Positions 7,795-30,377 of a DNA stretch of 64,000 nt are shown in pieces. The notes beneath the pieces were generated by a model. It was not told the DNA's origin. It saw only the letters and a list, made by a program, of their open reading frames with translations, and did not search any database. Source of the stretch: Stenotrophomonas raiganjensis (SeqCode). Lineage in GTDB: Bacteria; Pseudomonadota; Gammaproteobacteria; Xanthomonadales; Xanthomonadaceae. Where the stretch lies: contig NZ_JAUTXR010000188.1 in NCBI RefSeq assembly GCF_030658505.1, positions 1 through 64,000 of the forward strand, written 5' to 3'. A program made the position numbers and the translations under genes. Within the stretch, counting starts at the first letter, position 1; every line of letters starts with the position of its first letter.

Positions 7795-8358
7795 ATGAAA
7801 TCCACCGCGTTGCTGACCCTGGCCTGCCTGTCGGCGACGGCTGCCGTGGCCCAGGCGCAGGAGGCCGAACCGCGCAACCGGGTGGTGATCGTCGAGAACG
7901 TGAAGTTCGACTATGCGCAGGTGCTGAACGTCGAGCCGGTGTTCCAGACCCTGCGCGCGACCCGCACCGAGGAGCACTGCGAGCCGGTGTCGACCCGGAC
8001 CCTGGCCCCGGTCAACGTGACCGGCGAGGAGCCGGTCGAGGACAAGGGCCGGATCAGCCGCTTCTGGGATTCGGTGCGCTCGATGTTCAAGCGCAGCGAC
8101 GAGGAGGCCGTTGAGGAGGTCGGAACCGAGACGCCGGCCCCGGCGCCGGCCAACAATGGCCCGATGCTGACCCGCGACTGCCGCATCGTGCCGGTGGGGC
8201 GTGAATTCCGCCGGCCCATCGCCTACGACGTGGATTACGTCTACAAGGGCACCAAGTACCGATCGCGGCTGCCCGAAGACCCCGGCAACCGGCTCAAGAT
8301 CCGGGTGTCGATCACCCCCTGGGTCGGCCCCGAGCAGGGCGCGGCCGGCAATCCCTGA
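7795..8358 (+). CDS. Secreted protein of unknown function
   Basis: The 187-residue protein has a clear signal peptide (MKSTALLTLACLSATAAVAQAQ), so it is probably periplasmic. The C-terminal segment (AYDVDYVYKGTKYRSRLPEDPG, then LKIRVSITP) resembles the beta-rich tail seen in glycine-zipper 2TM/UmoD-like envelope proteins. No glycine zipper is present, and the middle is acidic and probably flexible. Three Cys residues may form disulfides. The ATG at 7795 was taken because it begins the signal peptide. The gene ends just before the arginine-operon leader and is the only separation from cysS. No function can be named. Confidence 0.75.
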   Translation: MKSTALLTLACLSATAAVAQAQEAEPRNRVVIVENVKFDYAQVLNVEPVFQTLRATRTEEHCEPVSTRTLAPVNVTGEEPVEDKGRISRFWDSVRSMFKRSDEEAVEEVGTETPAPAPANNGPMLTRDCRIVPVGREFRRPIAYDVDYVYKGTKYRSRLPEDPGNRLKIRVSITPWVGPEQGAAGNP

Positions 8359-8376
8359 TTCTGCGACCCCGGCCCC

Positions 8377-8405
8377 TTGCGCCGGCCCCGGCCGCATGCA
8401 AAGAT
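8377..8405 (+). promoter_or_regulatory. Candidate promoter of the arginine leader
   Basis: TTGCGC (8377-8382) and AAAGAT (8400-8405) are spaced 17 bp apart, with a TGC just before the -10 (extended -10 type). A start about 7 bp downstream would put the +1 next to the leader ATG at 8414, making the leader peptide nearly leaderless. This is a pattern-based inference only. Confidence 0.4.
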
Positions 8406-8413
8406 GGTCGACC

Positions 8414-8515
8414 ATGAAGCTCACCGACTTCCAGCACGACAGCAGCGCAGCCCGACAGGCGTCTGGCATGACCTCGCGTGCGCGTCGACCGGAACCCCAC
8501 ATCCTCGCTGGGTAA
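8414..8515 (+). CDS. Putative Arg-containing leader peptide of the arg operon
   Basis: A 33-codon open frame lies between the candidate promoter and a strong intrinsic terminator. It begins MKLTDFQHDSS and includes Arg at codons 14, 22, 24 and 25 (segment SRARRPEP, codons CGT-GCG-CGT-CGA at 8477-8488). Its last codons and stop (GCT GGG TAA) carry GCTGGGT (8507-8513). That heptamer is identical to the 3' arm of the downstream terminator and complementary to its 5' arm. The arrangement fits a classical amino-acid attenuator in which ribosome position at Arg codons decides termination. An internal ATG at 8468 would give a 15-residue peptide with three Arg in four residues. Whether it is translated is unknown. 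Confidence 0.5.
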   Translation: MKLTDFQHDSSAARQASGMTSRARRPEPHILAG

Positions 8516-8540
8516 CCGGAGCTTTCTGCTGTTCGTCCGA

Positions 8541-8570
8541 AAAAAACCCAGCCCGCCGGCTGGGTTTTTT
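8541..8570 (+). terminator. Intrinsic terminator ahead of argF' (probable attenuator)
   Basis: The stem AACCCAGCC (8545-8553) with GGCTGGGTT (8558-8566) has a four-base loop. It is flanked by A6 on the left and T6 on the right. It lies about 110 bp upstream of the argF' start rather than after a gene. The 5' arm (ACCCAGC, 8546-8552) could alternatively pair with GCTGGGT at 8507-8513, giving mutually exclusive terminator and antiterminator forms. Confidence 0.85.
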
Positions 8571-8677
8571 CGTTTACGCGTTCTGAAAGCTTCAACTGCA
8601 ACCTTCCCGCTCCACCTTTGGTTCCTGCTTTTCCCTTCCACCGCGTCGAACCCGGCGCCGCCACGCAAGGAAAGATG

Positions 8678-9688
8678 ATGTCCCCCAAGCACTTCCTGAA
8701 CACCCAGGACTGGAGCCGCAGCGAACTTGACGCGCTGCTGACCCAGGCCGCGCTGTTCAAGCGCAACAAGCTCGGCGACCAGCTCAAGGGCAAGTCGATC
8801 GCGCTGGTGTTCTTCAACCCGTCCATGCGCACCCGCACCAGCTTCGAACTGGGCGCGTTCCAGCTCGGCGCCCACGCGGTGGTGCTGCAGCCGGGCAAGG
8901 ATGCGTGGCCGATCGAGTTCAACCTCGGCACGGTCATGGACGGCGATACCGAAGAGCACATCGCTGAAGTGGCCAAGGTGCTGGGCCGTTACTGCGACAT
9001 CATCGCCGTGCGTGCGTTCCCCAAGTTCATCGACTGGGCCTACGACCGCCAGGACATCGTCCTCAACAGCTTCGCCAGGTATTCGCCGGTGCCGGTCATC
9101 AACATGGAGACCATCACCCATCCGTGCCAGGAGCTGGCCCACATCATGGCCCTGCAGGAGCACTTCGGCACCCAGGACCTGCGTGGCAAGAAGTACGTGC
9201 TGACCTGGACCTACCACCCCAAGCCGCTGAACACCGCCGTGGCCAATTCGGCGCTGACCATCGCCACCCGCATGGGCATGGACGTGACCCTGCTGTGCCC
9301 GACCGCCGACTACATCCTCGACGACCGCTACATGGGCTGGGCCGAGCAGAACGTGGCCGAGAGCGGTGGTTCGCTGAAGATCAGCCATGACATCGACAGC
9401 GCCTACGCCGGCGCCGACGTGGTTTACGCCAAGAGCTGGGGTGCGCTGCCGTTCTTCGGCAACTGGGAACCGGAAAAGCCGATCCGCGACCAGTTCAAGC
9501 ACTTCATCGTCGACGAACGGAAGATGGCACTGACCAACAACGGCGTGTTCAGCCATTGCCTGCCGCTGCGCCGCAACGTGAAAGCCACCGATGCGGTGAT
9601 GGATTCGCCGCAGTGCATCGCCATCAACGAAGCCGAGAACCGCCTGCACGTGCAGAAGGCGATCATGGCCGCGGTGGCCGGGCGCTGA
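8678..9688 (+). CDS. argF': N-acetylornithine carbamoyltransferase (ArgF')
   Basis: The 336-residue protein is a transcarbamylase that carbamoylates N-acetylornithine to N-acetylcitrulline, replacing ordinary ornithine carbamoyltransferase in Xanthomonadales. It has the carbamoyl-phosphate motif [12 protein letters not shown] (SMRTR instead of the usual STRTR), [12 protein letters not shown], and the C-terminal [10 protein letters not shown] loop. It also keeps the LQPGKDAW segment typical of the acetylornithine enzyme. The whole sequence reads very close to the structurally studied Xanthomonas campestris enzyme. Of two adjacent ATGs, the second (8678) is better spaced from the AAGGAAAG ribosome site. 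It is the first structural gene of the arg/pro block. Confidence 0.95.
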
Positions 9689-9733: not shown

Positions 9734-9750
9734 CAGGACATACCTTCCCC

Positions 9751-10947
9751 ATGAGCAACAAAGACGTCGTTCTCGCCTTCTCCGGCGGCCTGGATACCAG
9801 CTTCTGCGTGCCGTACCTGCAGGAGCGCGGCTACAACGTGCACACCGTGTTCGCCGACACCGGTGGCGTCGATGATGAAGAGCGTGATTTCATCGAGAAG
9901 CGCGCCGCCGAACTGGGCGTGGCCAGCCATGTCACCGTCAACGGTGGCCCGGCCATCTGGGAAGGCTTCGTCAAGCCGTTCGTGTGGGCCGGCGAAGGTT
10001 ACCAGGGCCAGTACCCGCTGCTGGTCTCGGACCGCTACCTGATCGTCGATGCCGCGCTGAAGCGTGCCGCCGAGCTGGGCACCAACATCATCGCCCACGG
10101 CTGCACCGGCATGGGCAACGACCAGGTCCGCTTCGACCTGGCCGTGAAGGCGCTGGGCGACTACCAGATCATCGCGCCGATCCGCGAGATCCAGAAGGAA
10201 CACACCCAGACCCGCGCCTACGAGCAGAAGTACCTGGAAGAGCGCGGCTTCGGCGTGCGTGCCAAGCAGCAGGCCTACACCATCAACGAGAACCTGCTGG
10301 GCCTGACCATGTCCGGCGGCGAGATCGACCGTTGGGAAGCCCCGGGCGAGGGGGCGCGTGGCTGGTGCTCGCCGCGCAGCGAGTGGCCGGAACAGGCCCT
10401 GACCGTCACCCTGAAGTTCGTCGAAGGCGAAGCCGTTGAACTGAACGGCAAGGCGCTGCCGGGCGACCAGATCCTGGCCCAGCTCAACAAGCTGTTCGCC
10501 CCGTATGGCGTTGGTCGTGGCGTGTACACCGGCGACACCGTGATCGGCCTGAAGGGCCGCATCGTGTTCGAGGCCCCGGGCCTGGTCTCTCTGCTGGCCG
10601 CGCACCGCGCGCTGGAAGATGCCGTGCTGACCAAGCAGCAGAACCGCTTCAAGCCGGACGTCGCACGCAAGTGGGTGGAGCTGGTGTACGAAGGCTTCTA
10701 CCACGACCCGCTGAAGACCGACATCGAAGCCTTCCTGAAGTCTTCGCAGGCCAAGGTCAACGGTGAAGTGGTGCTGGAAACCCGTGGTGGCCGCGTTGAC
10801 GCGGTGGCGGTGAAGTCGCCGCACCTGCTCAACACCAAGGGCGCCACCTACGCGCAGTCGGCGGACTGGGGCGTGGAAGAGGCGGAGGGCTTCATCAAGC
10901 TGTTCGGCATGAGCTCGACGCTCTTTGCTCAAGTCAACCGCGGTTGA
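9751..10947 (+). CDS. argG: Argininosuccinate synthase
   Basis: The 398-residue ATP-dependent ligase condenses citrulline and aspartate to argininosuccinate. The N-terminal ATP pyrophosphatase P-loop is [17 protein letters not shown], and the [15 protein letters not shown] citrulline/aspartate motif follows. Length matches the family. In this organism the citrulline substrate comes from deacetylation of acetylcitrulline by the next gene product. The ATG at 9751 ([13 protein letters not shown]) gives the standard N-terminus. Hairpins follow the stop: 10982-10996, and 10996-11018 with stem GCCCCCTT/AAGGGGGC. They could terminate some transcripts or process the mRNA. Confidence 0.97.
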
Positions 10948-11084: not shown

Positions 11085-12173
11085 ATGCTTGAACAGACGA
11101 TCTCGCATCTGCAGGCCCTGGTGTCCTTTGACACCCGCAACCCGCCGCGTGCGATCACCACCGGTGGCATCTTCGATTACCTGCGCGCGAACCTGCCCGG
11201 CTTCAATGTCGAGGTGATCGACCATGGCGCGGGCGCGGTCAGCCTGTACGCGGTGCGTGGTAGGCCGAAGTACCTGTTCAACGTGCACCTGGACACGGTG
11301 CCGGACTCGCCGCACTGGAGTGCCGATCCACACGTGATGCGCCGCCTCGACGACCGCGTGGTCGGTCTGGGCGTGTGCGACATCAAGGGGGCGGCTGCCG
11401 CGCTGGTGGCCGCTGCCAACGCCAGCAGCGGTGACGCCGCGTTCCTGTTCTCCAGCGATGAGGAAGCCAACGACCCGCGCTGCATCGCTGCGTTCCTGGC
11501 CCGGGGAATTCCGTACGAAGCGGTGCTGGTGGCCGAGCCGACCATGAGCGAAGCGGTGCTCGCGCACCGTGGTATCAGTTCGGTGCTGATGCAGTTCGCC
11601 GGTCGGGCAGGGCACGCCTCGGGCAAGCAGGATGCGGCTGCCAGCGCGCTGCACCAGGCCATGCGCTGGGGCAACCGCGCGCTGGACCATGTGGAATCGC
11701 TGGCTTCGGCGCGCTTCGGTGGGCTGACCGGCCTGCGCTTCAACATCGGCCGCGTCGAAGGTGGCATCAAGGCCAACATGATCGCGCCCGCTGCTGAACT
11801 GCGCTTCGGTTTCCGGCCGCTGCCGTCGATGGACATCGATGCGCTGCTGGCGACCTTTGCCGGTTTTGCCGAGCCGGAAGCTGCGCTCTTCACCGAAACC
11901 TTCCGTGGCCCCAGCCTGCCGGCCGGTGACATCGCCGAGGCCGAGAACCGCCGCCTGCTGGCCCGCGATGTGGCCGATGCGCTGGAGCTGCCGATCGGCA
12001 ATGCCGTGGATTTCTGGACCGAGGCGTCGCTGTTCTCGGCCGGTGGCTACACCACGATGGTGTTCGGCCCGGGTGACATTGCCCAGGCCCACACCGCCGA
12101 TGAGTTCGTGACGCTGGACCAGCTGCAGCGCTACACCGACGCCGTGCACCGGATCATCGCCGCCGGCGCCTGA
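11085..12173 (+). CDS. argE': N-acetyl-L-citrulline deacetylase (ArgE')
   Basis: The 362-residue M20-family metallohydrolase removes acetyl from N-acetylcitrulline to give citrulline for argG. Metal-site motifs are visible in order: NVHLDTVPDS (His/Asp), GVCDIKGAAAAL (bridging Asp), FSSDEEAND (catalytic Glu), VAEPTMSE and the late AQAHTADEF His. The dimerisation lid contains GHASGKQDAAASAL. Its position between argG and argB, and the presence of argF', support acetylcitrulline over acetylornithine as substrate. That specificity is inferred from family and context, not from a diagnostic residue I can verify. Confidence 0.93.
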   Translation: MLEQTISHLQALVSFDTRNPPRAITTGGIFDYLRANLPGFNVEVIDHGAGAVSLYAVRGRPKYLFNVHLDTVPDSPHWSADPHVMRRLDDRVVGLGVCDIKGAAAALVAAANASSGDAAFLFSSDEEANDPRCIAAFLARGIPYEAVLVAEPTMSEAVLAHRGISSVLMQFAGRAGHASGKQDAAASALHQAMRWGNRALDHVESLASARFGGLTGLRFNIGRVEGGIKANMIAPAAELRFGFRPLPSMDIDALLATFAGFAEPEAALFTETFRGPSLPAGDIAEAENRRLLARDVADALELPIGNAVDFWTEASLFSAGGYTTMVFGPGDIAQAHTADEFVTLDQLQRYTDAVHRIIAAGA

Positions 12174-12248: not shown

Positions 12249-13577
12249 ATGTCTCCTGCCCTCCAGCCCCACCGCCAGACCCGCCAGACCATCGTGCGCC
12301 TGCTTTCCAGCATGGCCAGCGCGAAGGAGATCAGCCAGTACCTCAAGCGCTTCTCGCAGCTGGACGCCAAGCGCTTCGCCGTGGTCAAGGTCGGCGGCGC
12401 GGTGCTGCGCGACGACCTCGACGCACTGACCTCCTCGCTGTCGTTCCTGCAGGAAGTCGGGCTGACCCCGATCGTGCTGCACGGTGCCGGCCCGCAGCTG
12501 GATGCCGAGCTGTCGGCGGCCGGCATCGAGAAGCAGACCGTGAACGGCCTGCGCGTGACCTCGCCGGAAGCGCTGGCGATCGTGCGCCGGGTATTCCAGC
12601 AGTCCAACCTGCGCCTGGTCGAAGCCCTGCAGCAGAACGGTGCACGTGCCACCTCGATCACCGGTGGCGTGTTCGAGGCCGAGTACCTGGACGTGGACAC
12701 CTACGGCCTGGTCGGCGAGGTGAAGAAGGTCAACCTGGCACCGATCGAGGCCAGCCTGCGTGCCGGCTCGATCCCGGTCATCACCAGCCTGGGTGAAACC
12801 GCCGGTGGCCAGATCCTCAACGTCAACGCCGACTTCGCCGCCAACGAGCTGGTGCAGGAACTGCAGCCGTACAAGATCATCTTCCTGACCGGCACCGGCG
12901 GCCTGCTGGATGAGGCCGGCAACGTGATCGATTCGATCAACCTGTCCACCGAGTACGACCACCTGATTGCACAGCCGTGGATTCACGGCGGCATGAAAGT
13001 GAAGATCGAACAGATCAAGGACCTGCTCGACCGGCTGCCGCTGGAGTCGTCGGTGTCGATCACCCGCCCGGCCGACCTGGCCAAGGAACTGTTCACCCAC
13101 AAGGGCTCGGGCACGCTGGTGCGCAAGGGCGAGAAGGTGCTGCGCGCCACCGCCTGGAACGAACTGGACCTGCCGCGCCTGAAGGGCCTGATCGAATCCA
13201 GCTTCGGCCGCACCCTGGTGCCGGACTACTTCGAGAAGACCAGACTGCTGCGCGCCTATGTCAGCGAGAATTACCGCACCGCGGTGATCCTCACCGACGA
13301 GGCCGAAGGCGTGTACCTGGACAAGTTCGCAGTGCTCGACGACGCGCAGGGTGAAGGCCTGGGTCGTGCGGTCTGGAACGTGATGCTGGAGGAGACCCCG
13401 CAGCTGTTCTGGCGTTCGCGCCACGGCAACCCGATCAATCACTTCTACTACGCCGAATCTGACGGCTGCTACAAGCAGGACCACTGGAAGGTGTTCTGGT
13501 TCGGCGCCGATGGCATCGACCGCATCCGCACCTACGTCGATCACTGCGCCAAGCGCGCCCCGAGCCTGCAGGGCTGA
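12249..13577 (+). CDS. argB: Bifunctional N-acetylglutamate synthase/kinase
   Basis: The 442-residue fusion has an N-terminal amino-acid-kinase domain (about 30-285), with the VVKVGGAVL and LHGAGPQLD motifs for ATP and acetylglutamate. A C-terminal GNAT acetyltransferase domain (about 295-435) ends in [21 protein letters not shown]. Such NAGS-K fusions in Xanthomonadales make acetylglutamate and then phosphorylate it, and are the expected target of arginine feedback inhibition. This explains the absence of a separate argA or argJ. The stop is followed at once by the GNAT gene ATG, so the two are probably co-translated. Confidence 0.95.
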
Positions 13578-14183
13578 ATGATGGACCATTCCGATCACTG
13601 GACTACGATTCCCACCTTGCGCGGCCAGCACGTGACACTGCAACCGCTGCAGCCCGAGCATGTGCCTGGCCTGCGCGCCGCCGTGGAGGGCAGTGGCCTG
13701 GACCAGCTCTGGTACACCCAGGTGCCTTCGCCGGAGCGGGTCGAACACTATGTGCAGGCCGCACTGCAGGCGCAGGTGGAAGGCAAGGTGCTGCCGTTGG
13801 TGATCCTCGATGCGGCGGGTGACATCGTGGGTACCACGCGCTTCTACGACCTGGATGCCGGCGTGCCCAAGCTCAGCCTCGGCTACACCTGGTATGCACC
13901 GCGCGTGCAGCGTACCGGCGTCAACACCGAAACCAAGCTGTTGCTGCTGCAGCACGCCTTCGAAACCATGGGCTGCATCAGCCTGGTGCTGGAAACCAGC
14001 TGGTTCAACTTCACCTCGCGCACCGCCATCGCCCGCCTCGGCGCCAAGCAGGACGGCGTGCTGCGCAACCACAAGCGGCATGCCGACGGCACGCCGCGCG
14101 ACACGGTCATCTTCTCCATCATCGATACGGAATGGCAGGGCGTGAAGCGCCACCTGCAGCACCGCCTGGACAGCCACGCATGA
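13578..14183 (+). CDS. GNAT family N-acetyltransferase embedded in the arg operon
   Basis: The 201-residue protein resembles the RimJ/RimL/puromycin-acetyltransferase branch of GNATs ([16 protein letters not shown] at the N-terminus; [27 protein letters not shown] around the acetyl-CoA motif; [18 protein letters not shown] near the end). It starts immediately after the argB stop and overlaps the argC start by four bases (ATGA). It is therefore firmly part of the operon. Since acetylglutamate synthesis is already covered by the fused ArgB, its substrate is unclear. A protein or small-molecule acetylation role is possible, and arginine metabolism is only suggested by position. Confidence 0.88.
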
Positions 14184-15133
14184 ACGATTCGACTTTCACC
14201 CTGGGCATCGTCGGCGCCCGTGGCCATACCGGCGCCGAGCTGATCAAGCTGGTGGCCGGCCACCCGCGGCTGAAGCTGGCCTTCGTCTCTTCGCGCGAAC
14301 GCGCCGGGCAGCGCCTGTCCGACCACCATCCGGAATTCCAGGGCGAGCTGCAGTACGAGAACCTGGACGCTGACGCCGTGGCCGCCAAGGGCGTGGACGC
14401 GGTGATCCTGGCCCTGCCCAACGGCCTGGCCGCACCGTTCGTGGCCGCACTGGACGCGGCGAAGCCGGACACCGTCATCGTCGACCTGTCGGCCGACTAC
14501 CGCTTCGACAACAGCTGGTACTACGGCCTGCCGGAGCTGACCCGCGGCCGCTACAACGGCCAGACGCACATCAGCAACCCGGGCTGCTATGCCACGGCGA
14601 TGCAGCTGGCGGTGCATCCGCTGCTGGACCTGCTGGCCGGTCCGCCGCAGTGCTTCGGTGTGTCCGGCTATTCCGGCGCCGGCACCACGCCGTCGGACAA
14701 GAACAACGTCGAACTGCTGGCCGACAACCTGATGCCGTATGCGCTGACCAACCACGTGCACGAGCGCGAAGTGTCGGTCCAGCTGGGCGTGGCGGTTGAA
14801 TTCATGCCACACGTCGCGCCGCATTTCCGTGGCATCACGCTCACCGCCAACCTGTGGCTGAACCGCGTGCAGACCCGCGAACAGATCGTCGAGCGTTTCC
14901 AGCAGGCCTATGCGGGCGAACCGCTGATCGAGGTGGTGGATGAAGCGCCGTGGGTCAGCCGCATCGCCGGCCGCCACGGTGCCCAGGTCGGTGGCTTCAC
15001 CCTGGCCCCGGGCGGCAAGCGGGTGGTGGTGGTGGCGACCCTGGACAACCTGCTGAAGGGCGCGGCCACCCAGGCCATGCAGAACCTCAACCTCGCGCTG
15101 GGCATCGACGAACTGACGTCGATCCCGCACTGA
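14180..15133 (+). CDS. argC: N-acetyl-gamma-glutamyl-phosphate reductase
   Basis: The 317-residue NADPH-dependent reductase makes N-acetylglutamate semialdehyde. The N-terminal Rossmann motif is [13 protein letters not shown], and the active-site cysteine lies in [16 protein letters not shown]. The conserved [14 protein letters not shown] and HVHERE segments follow. The ATG at 14180, overlapping the GNAT stop, gives [12 protein letters not shown] as the natural N-terminus. The acetylornithine aminotransferase needed for the next step is not in the window. Confidence 0.96.
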
Positions 15134-15153
15134 ACACGTATTCCGGAGCCCTC

Positions 15154-16449
15154 ATGGCAGACCTTCTTTGGCAAAAGCCCGGCGTCGCCGTCGACGCCCA
15201 GATCCAGACCTTCCTCGCCGGTGACGACGTGATCCTCGACCGCGAGTTCTTCCTGCATGACATCGCCGCCAGCGCCGCGCATGCGCAGGGCCTGCAGCAC
15301 ATCGGCATCCTCAGCGCCGATGAACTGGCCGGCCTGCTGCGCGAGCTCGACGTGTTGGCGCAGGACTTCCGCGAAGGCCGCTTCGTGCTGGACACGCAGT
15401 ACGAAGATGGCCACTCGGCGATCGAAGCGCGCCTGACCGAACGCCTCGGCGATGCCGGCCGCAAGATCCACACCGGCCGCAGCCGCAATGACCAGATCCT
15501 GGTCGCCACCCGCCTCTGGCTGAAGGAGAAGCTGCAGCGCGTGGCGCAGCTCAGCGCCGACGTGGCCAAGGTCGCGCTGGACCGTGCGCAGGCCGAGAAG
15601 GACCTGCCGATTCCCGGCTACACCCATATCCAGCGCGCCGTGGTGTCCTCGGCTGGCATGTGGTGGGCCGGATGGGCCGAGGCCTTCATCGACAACGCCA
15701 TCCGTGCCCGGGATACCCATGCGCTGGTCGACGCCAACCCGCTTGGCACGGCTGCCGGCTACGGTGTGAACCTGCCGCTGGACCGCGAGCACACCACCGC
15801 CGCGCTGGGCTTTGCGCGGATGCAGATCTCGCCGATCTACGCGCAGCTGTCGCGCGGCAAGTTCGAGCTGGCCGCGCTGGAAGCGCTCAGCGGTGCCACG
15901 CTGGACCTGCGCCGCATTGCCTGGGATCTGTCGCTGTTCACCAGCGCCGAATTCGGTTTCGTGGCATTGCCGGCGCAGTACACCACCGGCAGTTCGATCA
16001 TGCCCAACAAGCGCAACCCGGACGTGATCGAACTGATGCGTGCGACCCACGCCAGCGTCGCCGCTGCACGCACCGAGATCGAACAGCTGCTGTCGCTGCC
16101 GTCCGGTTATCACCGTGACCTGCAGTCGTCCAAGGGCGCCATCTTCCACGGTTTCGGCCGCGGCCTGGCCGCGCTGGAACTGCTGCCGGCGCTGCTGGCC
16201 AACCTGGAATGGCGTGACGACAAGCTGCGCGCGGCGATTGATTCAGGCATGTATGCCACCGACGTTGCCGTGGAAGCGGCCGTGGCTGGCGTGCCGTTCC
16301 GCGAGGCCTACAAGGCGGCTGCGGCCGGTGCCGACAGTGCAGGGCAGGGGCGCACGCCGGAAGGCAGCCTGGCGGCGCGCGTGTCGCCGGGTTCGGCCGC
16401 CGACCTTCGCCTGGACGAACTGCGCACGCGCTGGCAGGCGCTGTCCTGA
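15154..16449 (+). CDS. argH: Argininosuccinate lyase
   Basis: The 431-residue fumarase/aspartase-superfamily enzyme splits argininosuccinate to arginine and fumarate, the last step of the pathway. The superfamily signature [12 protein letters not shown] is present, as are HTGRSRNDQ and [10 protein letters not shown]. The start [11 protein letters not shown] at 15154 lies 20 bp past argC. The stop overlaps the next start as TGATG. The protein is a little shorter than the 455-460 residues common in enterobacteria, but no motif is missing. Confidence 0.96.
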
Positions 16450-30083: not shown

Positions 30084-30160
<77 letters not shown>

Positions 30161-30254
30161 AAGGGAGCCGCCTATTCTAGCGATTCACCCCGATGGCGGC
30201 AAGGGGTAAATGCTGTTTTCTTCACACTGCCGAAGCAGTGCCACTTCAGGGAAC

Positions 30255-30283
30255 AAAAAAGCCTGGACGACTTCACCAGGCTT
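30255..30283 (-). terminator. Terminator of the second tRNA-Pro gene
   Basis: The minus-strand stem AAGCCTGG with CCAGGCTT is followed by six T residues. It sits about 18 bp after the tRNA 3' end, so each tRNA copy has its own terminator. Confidence 0.9.
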
Positions 30284-30300
30284 CAATGCGACCACATGAG

Positions 30301-30377
<77 letters not shown>

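Follow-up and report, generated by a model that had tools for sequence, protein, structure and literature searches.

Ribosome-mediated attenuators are known for the his, trp, leu, ilv, thr and phe operons, and TnaC, SpeFL and the fungal arginine attenuator peptide are precedents for sensing by arrest of the ribosome through its nascent peptide. The fungal peptide resembles the leader described here in being a conserved upstream peptide that controls an arginine gene, however, it is eukaryotic, acts on translation, arrests at high arginine and involves no terminator. For arginine, the available part of a survey of attenuators in Actinobacteria mentions T-boxes as the sole RNA control (PMC1262725). 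In the Salmonella orf34/SpeFL leader of speF, a conserved leader peptide with consecutive Arg codons is found, as in our case, and slowing of the ribosome at low arginine alters the downstream RNA fold (PMC6386406, excerpted text). Nevertheless the gene under orf34/SpeFL control encodes ornithine decarboxylase and is regulated by way of Rho, RNase G and the ribosome-binding site (PMC6386406, same excerpts), whereas the leader of argF' precedes a biosynthetic operon and carries an intrinsic terminator. It made no difference in orf34/SpeFL whether the Arg codons were rare or frequent, whereas a CGA codon is near-invariant in the argF' leader. By eye, the SpeFL motif HIRRT..HIM given there bears no likeness to MTSRARR. 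Similarly rbfL of Staphylococcus aureus, upstream of rbf, is a short leader ORF in which arginine limitation is sensed at rare Arg codons, however, its control is translational by occlusion of the ribosome-binding site, stalling reduces expression and the gene downstream is a biofilm regulator (PMC13009471, part of the article). Attenuation is thus a known mechanism, and in the open-licence literature we found no earlier case for arginine biosynthesis and, for the group studied here, recognised no report that places an arginine attenuator in front of argF'; the words Xanthomon- and argF are absent from the available part of the RNA-discovery paper PMC8632094. Within the scope of that literature, arginine would join the amino acids with classical biosynthetic attenuators.

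The window analysed is a stretch of 64,000 nucleotides from Stenotrophomonas raiganjensis, in which the leader stretch 8377-8680 sits between a small gene (7801-8358) and argF'. The genes behind the leader run in the order argF'-argG-argE'-argB-(GNAT)-argC-argH. An earlier note, made from the sequence alone, had proposed an arginine attenuator here, with an Arg-rich leader ORF, a terminator at 8541-8570 and a GCTGGGT (8507-8513) able to pair with ACCCAGC (8546-8552), and all of these parts were found at those positions.

8377..8382, + strand: candidate -35 element, TTGCGC, from the sequence
8397..8405, + strand: candidate extended -10 element predicted from the sequence, TGC followed by AAAGAT at 8400-8405, 17 nt past the -35 element
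8412, + strand: probable transcription start, 2 nt 5' of the leader ATG, at the first position of the Rfam Xoo5 match and, by homology, the 5' RACE end in X. oryzae
8412..8535, + strand: match to Rfam RF02242, 'Xoo5 sRNA', 102.2 bits (gathering cut-off 50)
8414..8515, + strand: leader peptide ORF of 33 codons, MKLTDFQHDSSAARQASGMTSRARRPEPHILAG and stop, from sequence and conservation
8465..8491, + strand: conserved peptide core GMTSRARRP, from the codon table and parsimony counts
8477..8488, + strand: putative regulatory Arg codons CGT-(GCG)-CGT-CGA, with CGT at 8477-8479, CGT at 8483-8485 and CGA at 8486-8488
8489..8498, + strand: segment 1 (CCGGAACCCC), able by folding to pair with segment 2 and the bases following it if free of ribosomes
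8507..8513, + strand: segment 2 (GCTGGGT), 5' strand of the antiterminator, overlapping the stop codon
8507..8552, + strand: antiterminator hairpin, segment 2 with the terminator 5' arm plus an inner stem, from folding
8541..8570, + strand: intrinsic terminator (segments 3 and 4), from terminator search and folding
8675..9688, + strand: argF', N-acetylornithine carbamoyltransferase (NF003384, 640 bits)
9748..10947, + strand: argG, argininosuccinate synthase
11085..12173, + strand: argE', acetylornithine deacetylase
12312..13577, + strand: argB, acetylglutamate kinase
14177..15133, + strand: argC
15148..16449, + strand: argH

On the basis of sequence comparison, these features very probably constitute a ribosome-mediated transcription attenuator of the arginine gene cluster that senses charged tRNA-Arg. 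Like the classical amino-acid attenuators, the locus combines a leader ORF that carries putative regulatory codons with two competing hairpins, antiterminator and terminator, ahead of a biosynthetic operon; it differs from them in that the amino acid would be arginine, in its conserved peptide, in a last codon that is nearly always one rare codon and, within the family of the window, in its probably near-leaderless start.

The leader is present upstream of argF' in 80 of 80 named argF' loci, 79 by the strict pattern and the last with Met of the core changed to Ile. These loci are the top 80 among 581 ranked by protein similarity and were picked regardless of the leader; they alone are unselected for it and they are also the closest relatives. 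The reading in the earlier note depended on Arg codons being kept in relatives, and every one of the 80 loci has them. The titles of these loci (L031-L110) are nearly all from Stenotrophomonas, Xanthomonas, Pseudoxanthomonas, Lysobacter or Luteimonas, the others being L052, L064, L087, L088, L106 and L109. L052, on a contig titled Bacillus subtilis SK7B5, is a Stenotrophomonas-like argF' locus whose protein is 92 % identical to that of the window, pointing to a mislabelled or contaminated assembly.

A wider set of 134 distinct leaders was obtained from 155 loci (80 by argF' similarity, 30 from Rfam, 31 by the motif itself, 13 by hand, and the window) after removing 21 duplicates; L112-L115, which repeat other loci, were omitted. 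By family, 97 leaders belong to f1, 32 to f12, three to f3 and two to f2. These labels are arbitrary; f1 includes the genus of the window and is referred to as its own family, and f12 is probably Rhodanobacteraceae. The strict pattern GGNATGACNTCNCGNGCNCGNCGNCC matched 151 of 299 genomes of the order, with a single match per genome and no control hits. The core motif occurs in all 79 own-family genomes sampled (72 strict matches and 7 variants, the argF' context being checked for the fetched loci) and in all 78 genomes sampled from f12, 76 of them by a slightly shorter pattern, again with a single match each and no control hits, and two as variants upstream of argF'. In a class-wide sample of 369 genomes the strict pattern was found in five, all of them from this order; none of the 364 class genomes outside the order matched, and the reversed control matched once (G023). 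The search patterns omit AGA and AGG codons, and since a search tolerating one mismatch also hit the controls in three of eight genomes (1, 1 and 3 matches), exact matches alone were used from it.

Codons for the end product of the pathway are clustered throughout, with three Arg codons within four in 134 of 134 leaders, a set that includes the 31 motif-fetched loci. With the same 31 of 155 source loci fetched by the motif, the Ala residues at -6 and -3 and the Ser, Arg, Ala, Arg and Arg of the core are constant in 134/134, Met and Thr are each kept in 133/134 and Gly in 127/134. Parsimony on the argF' tree gives no first- or second-base change at the seven fixed codons (-6, -3 and +2 to +6), with 6, 21, 3, 16, 15, 15 and 1 wobble changes, respectively. 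Such codon-periodic conservation points to a leader ORF maintained as coding sequence before a biosynthetic gene. Conservation of amino acids with synonymous drift near the putative stall site, as seen here, is also what would be looked for in an arrest peptide, and a rival explanation is that SARMAxGMTSRARR, usually with Pro next, is a nascent-peptide arrest sensor that halts or delays translation at RARR under the influence of arginine or arginyl-tRNA, starvation for codons being secondary. Apart from the seven codons whose wobble bases drift while their first and second bases stand still, this explanation draws on the kept non-Arg residues, none of which is needed for counting of codons, and on three f3 ORFs, which stop right after RARRP (L148) or RARRPG (L149, L150). 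However, the residue after RARR is Pro in 129, Leu in four and Asn in one of the 134 leaders, arrest induced by L-arginine at RARR predicts more read-through at high arginine, which is the wrong sign for biosynthesis, and other families of the order have unrelated Arg-rich leaders, suggesting that codons and not the peptide were the original sensor. We regard an arrest sensor of this kind as possible, though on balance doubtful. Repeated Arg codons alone were likewise rejected as a full account, since they do not explain the conserved non-Arg residues. That the peptide itself also slows the ribosome, in addition to attenuation at the codons, is plausible although unproven, and we offer it tentatively; the conserved peptide opens such a combination of codon sensing with peptide arrest to direct test.

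The last Arg codon of the core stands apart from its neighbours. On the argF' tree the wobble base of this fourth core codon has changed once, against 16 and 15 times for the two other core Arg codons, and the 163 ungapped codons of argF' show a mean of 16.3 wobble changes, with one change or fewer in 4.3 % of them. The codon (8486-8488 in the window) is CGA in 133 of the 134 leaders and CGC in L155, which has Leu in place of Pro; CGA is also found at this position among the strict-pattern matches listed for the order and in the f12 matches. Among the Arg codons of 38 window ORFs selected by a base-composition rule, 33 of 1096 (3.0 %) are CGA. At the other two core Arg positions all 268 codons are CGT or CGC, so that the three positions together are CGT, CGC or CGA in 402 of 402; G677 (L253), an f12 genome outside the 134 leaders, has CGG as the first core Arg codon. 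The avoidance of CGG is local to the core, because the Arg at -5, outside it, uses CGG in 50 of 121 cases. The tRNA-Arg with anticodon ACG (ICG) decodes CGU, CGC and CGA, the last of these poorly, and among 58 of the 61 tRNA matches in the genome of the window the tRNA-Arg anticodons are ACG, CCG, TCT and CCT. Restriction of the core to CGU, CGC and CGA means that a single isoacceptor, tRNA-Arg(ACG), could serve for all three codons; the leader would thus demand just this tRNA and finish on its slowest codon. RNA pairing alone was rejected as the cause of CGA, since the bases after CGACCG vary by family (GAA... against CTG...) whereas CGA is constant. A near-invariant CGA beside drifting neighbours offers a natural experiment on the choice of isoacceptor in attenuators.

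The terminator of the window folds at -19.2 kcal/mol (z -4.4, with none of 200 shuffles as good), and an intrinsic terminator lies before the first gene in 134 of 134 distinct leaders. The antiterminator RNA of the window (8502-8553) folds at -15.6 kcal/mol (z -1.9, 11 of 200 shuffles as good), a single-sequence signal that is suggestive at most. In the RNA downstream of a CGA-stalled ribosome, transcribed through the terminator 5' arm only, the antiterminator is part of the minimum-energy fold in 133 of the 134 leaders, and the mean energies are -19.0 (f1) and -24.6 (f12) kcal/mol, the terminators averaging -17.9 and -16.9. When segment 2 is placed at CGA+21, without any searching, 99.5 % of its pairs with the 5' arm are standard, compared with 13.7-54.6 % when it is shifted by 1 to 6 bases; this analysis covers 114 of the 134 leaders, the 20 with another stop position or a short arm being skipped. 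The complement is exact in 101 of these 114, against a mean of 61 and a maximum of 75 in 1000 trials with randomly dealt arms. After transcription of both arms the terminator is the favoured fold, so that the antiterminator would have to act kinetically. This, like the marginal single-sequence fold of the antiterminator, is a point against the attenuator reading.

For segment 2, the 5' arm and the 3' arm, own-family leaders have GCTGGGT/ACCCAGC/GCTGGGT and those of f12 GCCGGGT/ACCCGGC/GCCGGGT, segment 2 being a copy of the 3' arm. The three linked bases at segment 2 position 3, 5' arm position 5 and 3' arm position 3 read T/A/T in 79 of the 84 leaders from the own family and C/G/C in every one of the 30 from f12, the own-family exceptions being three C-A mismatches and two T-G pairs. 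The competition between antiterminator and terminator proposed in the earlier note, and the conservation of the GCTGGGT/ACCCAGC pairing on which it hinged, are thus borne out in relatives, with covariation at one position. The clear compensatory switch is limited to this one base pair and is mostly a single family-level event, which counts, with the three mismatches, against the attenuator reading. Two f3 leaders pair in a different register (GGGTTTC/GAAGCCC). Segment 2 begins at CGA+21 in 80 of 97 f1 and 29 of 32 f12 leaders; of the 129 leaders in these two families, 115 have their stop codon at CGA+27 and ten at CGA+18. A ribosome usually covers about 15 nt ahead of its P site, and with this spacing a ribosome stalled at CGA would leave segment 2 free, whereas one at the stop codon would cover it. 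With its near-fixed spacing and its covariation, a mutually exclusive antiterminator is therefore found just 3' of the putative stall codons. Pairing of segment 1 with segment 2 folds in 118 of 134 leaders; in the window it is no better than in shuffles (52 of 200 as good), a weak point of the attenuator reading.

The start of argF' is at 8675 or 8678, about 105 nt 3' of the terminator (about 110 bp in the earlier note). A gap of this size would leave room for a promoter, and it might be argued that the terminator merely ends an upstream transcript while argF' is served by its own promoter 3' of the hairpin. It may be added in favour of this view that no consensus promoter is seen 5' of the leader, though a scan for sigma-70 consensus sites gave none anywhere in 7800-9000, and the promoter is thus weak by consensus, which also counts against the attenuator reading. 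However, the start of argF', taken as the in-frame start codon nearest the aligned start, is within 40 nt of the hairpin in 16 of the 134 leaders (f1 3/97, f12 10/32, f3 3/3, f2 0/2), with the shortest gaps being 19 nt in f12 and 22 nt in f3, and those gaps leave no room for a promoter; the view also leaves the conserved peptide, the CGA codon and segment 2 unexplained. We consider it highly unlikely. A promoter downstream of the terminator would have spoken against the earlier note; the likely promoter instead lies 5' of the leader, at the Xoo5 5' RACE end placed by homology. A TTG[CA][AGC] element is found 36-39 nt 5' of the leader ATG in 91 of the 95 own-family leaders with ATG and in 9 of 31 from f12.

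Provided that the 5' RACE end of X. oryzae Xoo5 can be transferred by homology, the transcript would begin 2 nt ahead of the leader ATG. At 8412-8416 the RNA would then offer the leader ORF a 5' untranslated part of 2 nt and no Shine-Dalgarno sequence, and the attenuator of the own family would depend on leaderless initiation. Xoo5 was described in Xanthomonas oryzae as a cloned RNA of 124 nt, its 5' end determined by RACE and its 3' end taken from clones, with Northern bands of about 130 and about 100 nt, both in early growth and later only the shorter (PMC3039613, part of the article). The gene 3' of Xoo5 there, PXO_00353, is an N-acetylornithine carbamoyltransferase. The words 'argF', 'arginine', 'terminator' and 'leader' are absent from the main text of PMC3039613, and a general remark there, that RNAs cloned from 5' UTRs might act by attenuating transcription, does not name Xoo5.

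The RNA in Rfam RF02242 is the same as this leader, the match at 8412-8535 clearing the gathering cut-off, but it is filed as an sRNA. If that were its nature, Xoo5 would be a stand-alone trans-acting small RNA which overlaps a small ORF by chance, as its Rfam type, the score of 102 bits and the cloning and Northern detection in X. oryzae, with two early bands giving way to one shorter band (PMC3039613, in part), would allow. The codon-periodic conservation with free wobble bases does not fit such an RNA, nor does its location 5' of argF' and in the same orientation at all loci inspected for this, and the terminator and thereby the 3' strand of the antiterminator fall outside the Rfam model. 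A trans-acting role is very improbable in our judgement, and the attenuator reading would reassign this curated family to a cis-acting attenuator. A point against the attenuator reading is the length of the Xoo5 RNA in X. oryzae, which falls short of the approximately 160 nt expected of a transcript that ends at the terminator. As RF02242 spans a leader ORF with codon-periodic conservation and ends before the terminator, its family type and structure look wrong. A leader followed by a terminator is also the architecture of a riboswitch or T-box, in which a metabolite-binding RNA and not translation would be in control. Such a reading is extremely improbable, because no riboswitch or T-box family reached the gathering threshold in the window, where the Rfam matches are Xoo5 and two tRNAs, and because the leaders of other families have Arg codons in common and not sequence. 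On the evidence set out for each, the trans-acting sRNA, the downstream promoter and the riboswitch or T-box were all rejected. Two adjacent tRNA-Pro(CGG) genes lie on the minus strand of the window at 30087-30377.

From the parts, their conservation, their covariation and their spacing, we infer a stall and a response to arginine; the direction, expression at low arginine, follows from the geometry and the pathway. In the proposed attenuator, transcription would begin just 5' of the leader ATG. With charged tRNA-Arg in ample supply, the ribosome would pass RARR, reach the stop and mask GCTGGGT (segment 2), whereupon the terminator hairpin could form and RNA polymerase would halt before argF'. 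Poor charging of tRNA-Arg(ICG) would make the ribosome stall while the slow CGA codon occupies the A site, so that it reaches to a few bases short of segment 2 and covers segment 1; segment 2 would then be free to pair with the terminator 5' arm as antiterminator, and argF'-argG and the genes behind would be transcribed. If there is no translation at all, segment 1 would pair with segment 2 and the terminator would form. The nascent chain SAR-M-A-x-G-M-T-S-R-A-R-R may aid pausing at CGA, and attenuation is perhaps strengthened by such an arrest-like chain.

Across the order, ArgR (PF01316) was found in 8 of 151 genomes, all of family f11, and gave no match in the genome of the window. For Xanthomonas, Stenotrophomonas, Lysobacter and their relatives, a family without an ArgR match, the proposed attenuator offers an answer as to how arginine synthesis may be controlled. 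The confinement of ArgR to one other family had not been foreseen in the earlier note, nor had the identity with Rfam Xoo5, the conservation of the whole peptide and the near-constant CGA. In f2-f10 there are proteins with 59-76 % identity to argF' (for f8, in part of the genomes), whereas the identity in f11 is 37-42 %. The sequence upstream of argF' was read in 39 further f2-f10 genomes (40 stretches were fetched, L213 being too short). Of these 39, 26 contain a start-to-stop ORF with at least four Arg within six codons, compared with 8 of 39 on the reverse strand, and the Arg-rich ORF beats shuffles at the 5 % level in 16 of 39. The peptides are dissimilar (for example VVVRRRRPVKRMELFG, YRRLRRPGFH and LRRRSRRPMSA), with MTSRARR occurring again in six f2 and f3 genomes. 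Leaders were picked by eye in 33 of the 39 genomes, with L220, L224, L229, L241, L246 and L247 dropped for want of a clear candidate, and in some genomes the top computed Arg-rich ORF differs from the leader picked by eye. A terminator follows in 32 of these 33 leaders; a significant segment 2 is found in 14 of 32 and lacking in 18 of 32, which counts against the attenuator reading. The Arg codons of these leaders are CGC (60), CGA (43), CGT (41), CGG (4), AGA (2) and AGG (1).

These leaders suggest an ancient origin within the order for plain Arg-codon attenuation, with one peptide becoming fixed in the ancestors of f1, f12, f2 and f3. It is conceivable, with a likelihood that we place a little short of even, that the result is an arginine sensor built from the ribosome itself, in which the GMTSRARR chain causes hesitation at CGA and the charging of tRNA-Arg(ICG) decides whether the ribosome advances, having evolved from plain Arg-codon attenuators in an order with ArgR matches in one family. 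Among the surveyed loci (L209-L248), the f8 peptide VVVRRRRPVKRMELFG recurs (L234, L235) without a clear antiterminator partner. Upstream of the leader, the small gene at 7801-8358 had no NCBIfam match, and a C-terminal motif of its product (like PEDPGNRLRIRVSVTP) recurs 5' of the leader in many own-family loci.
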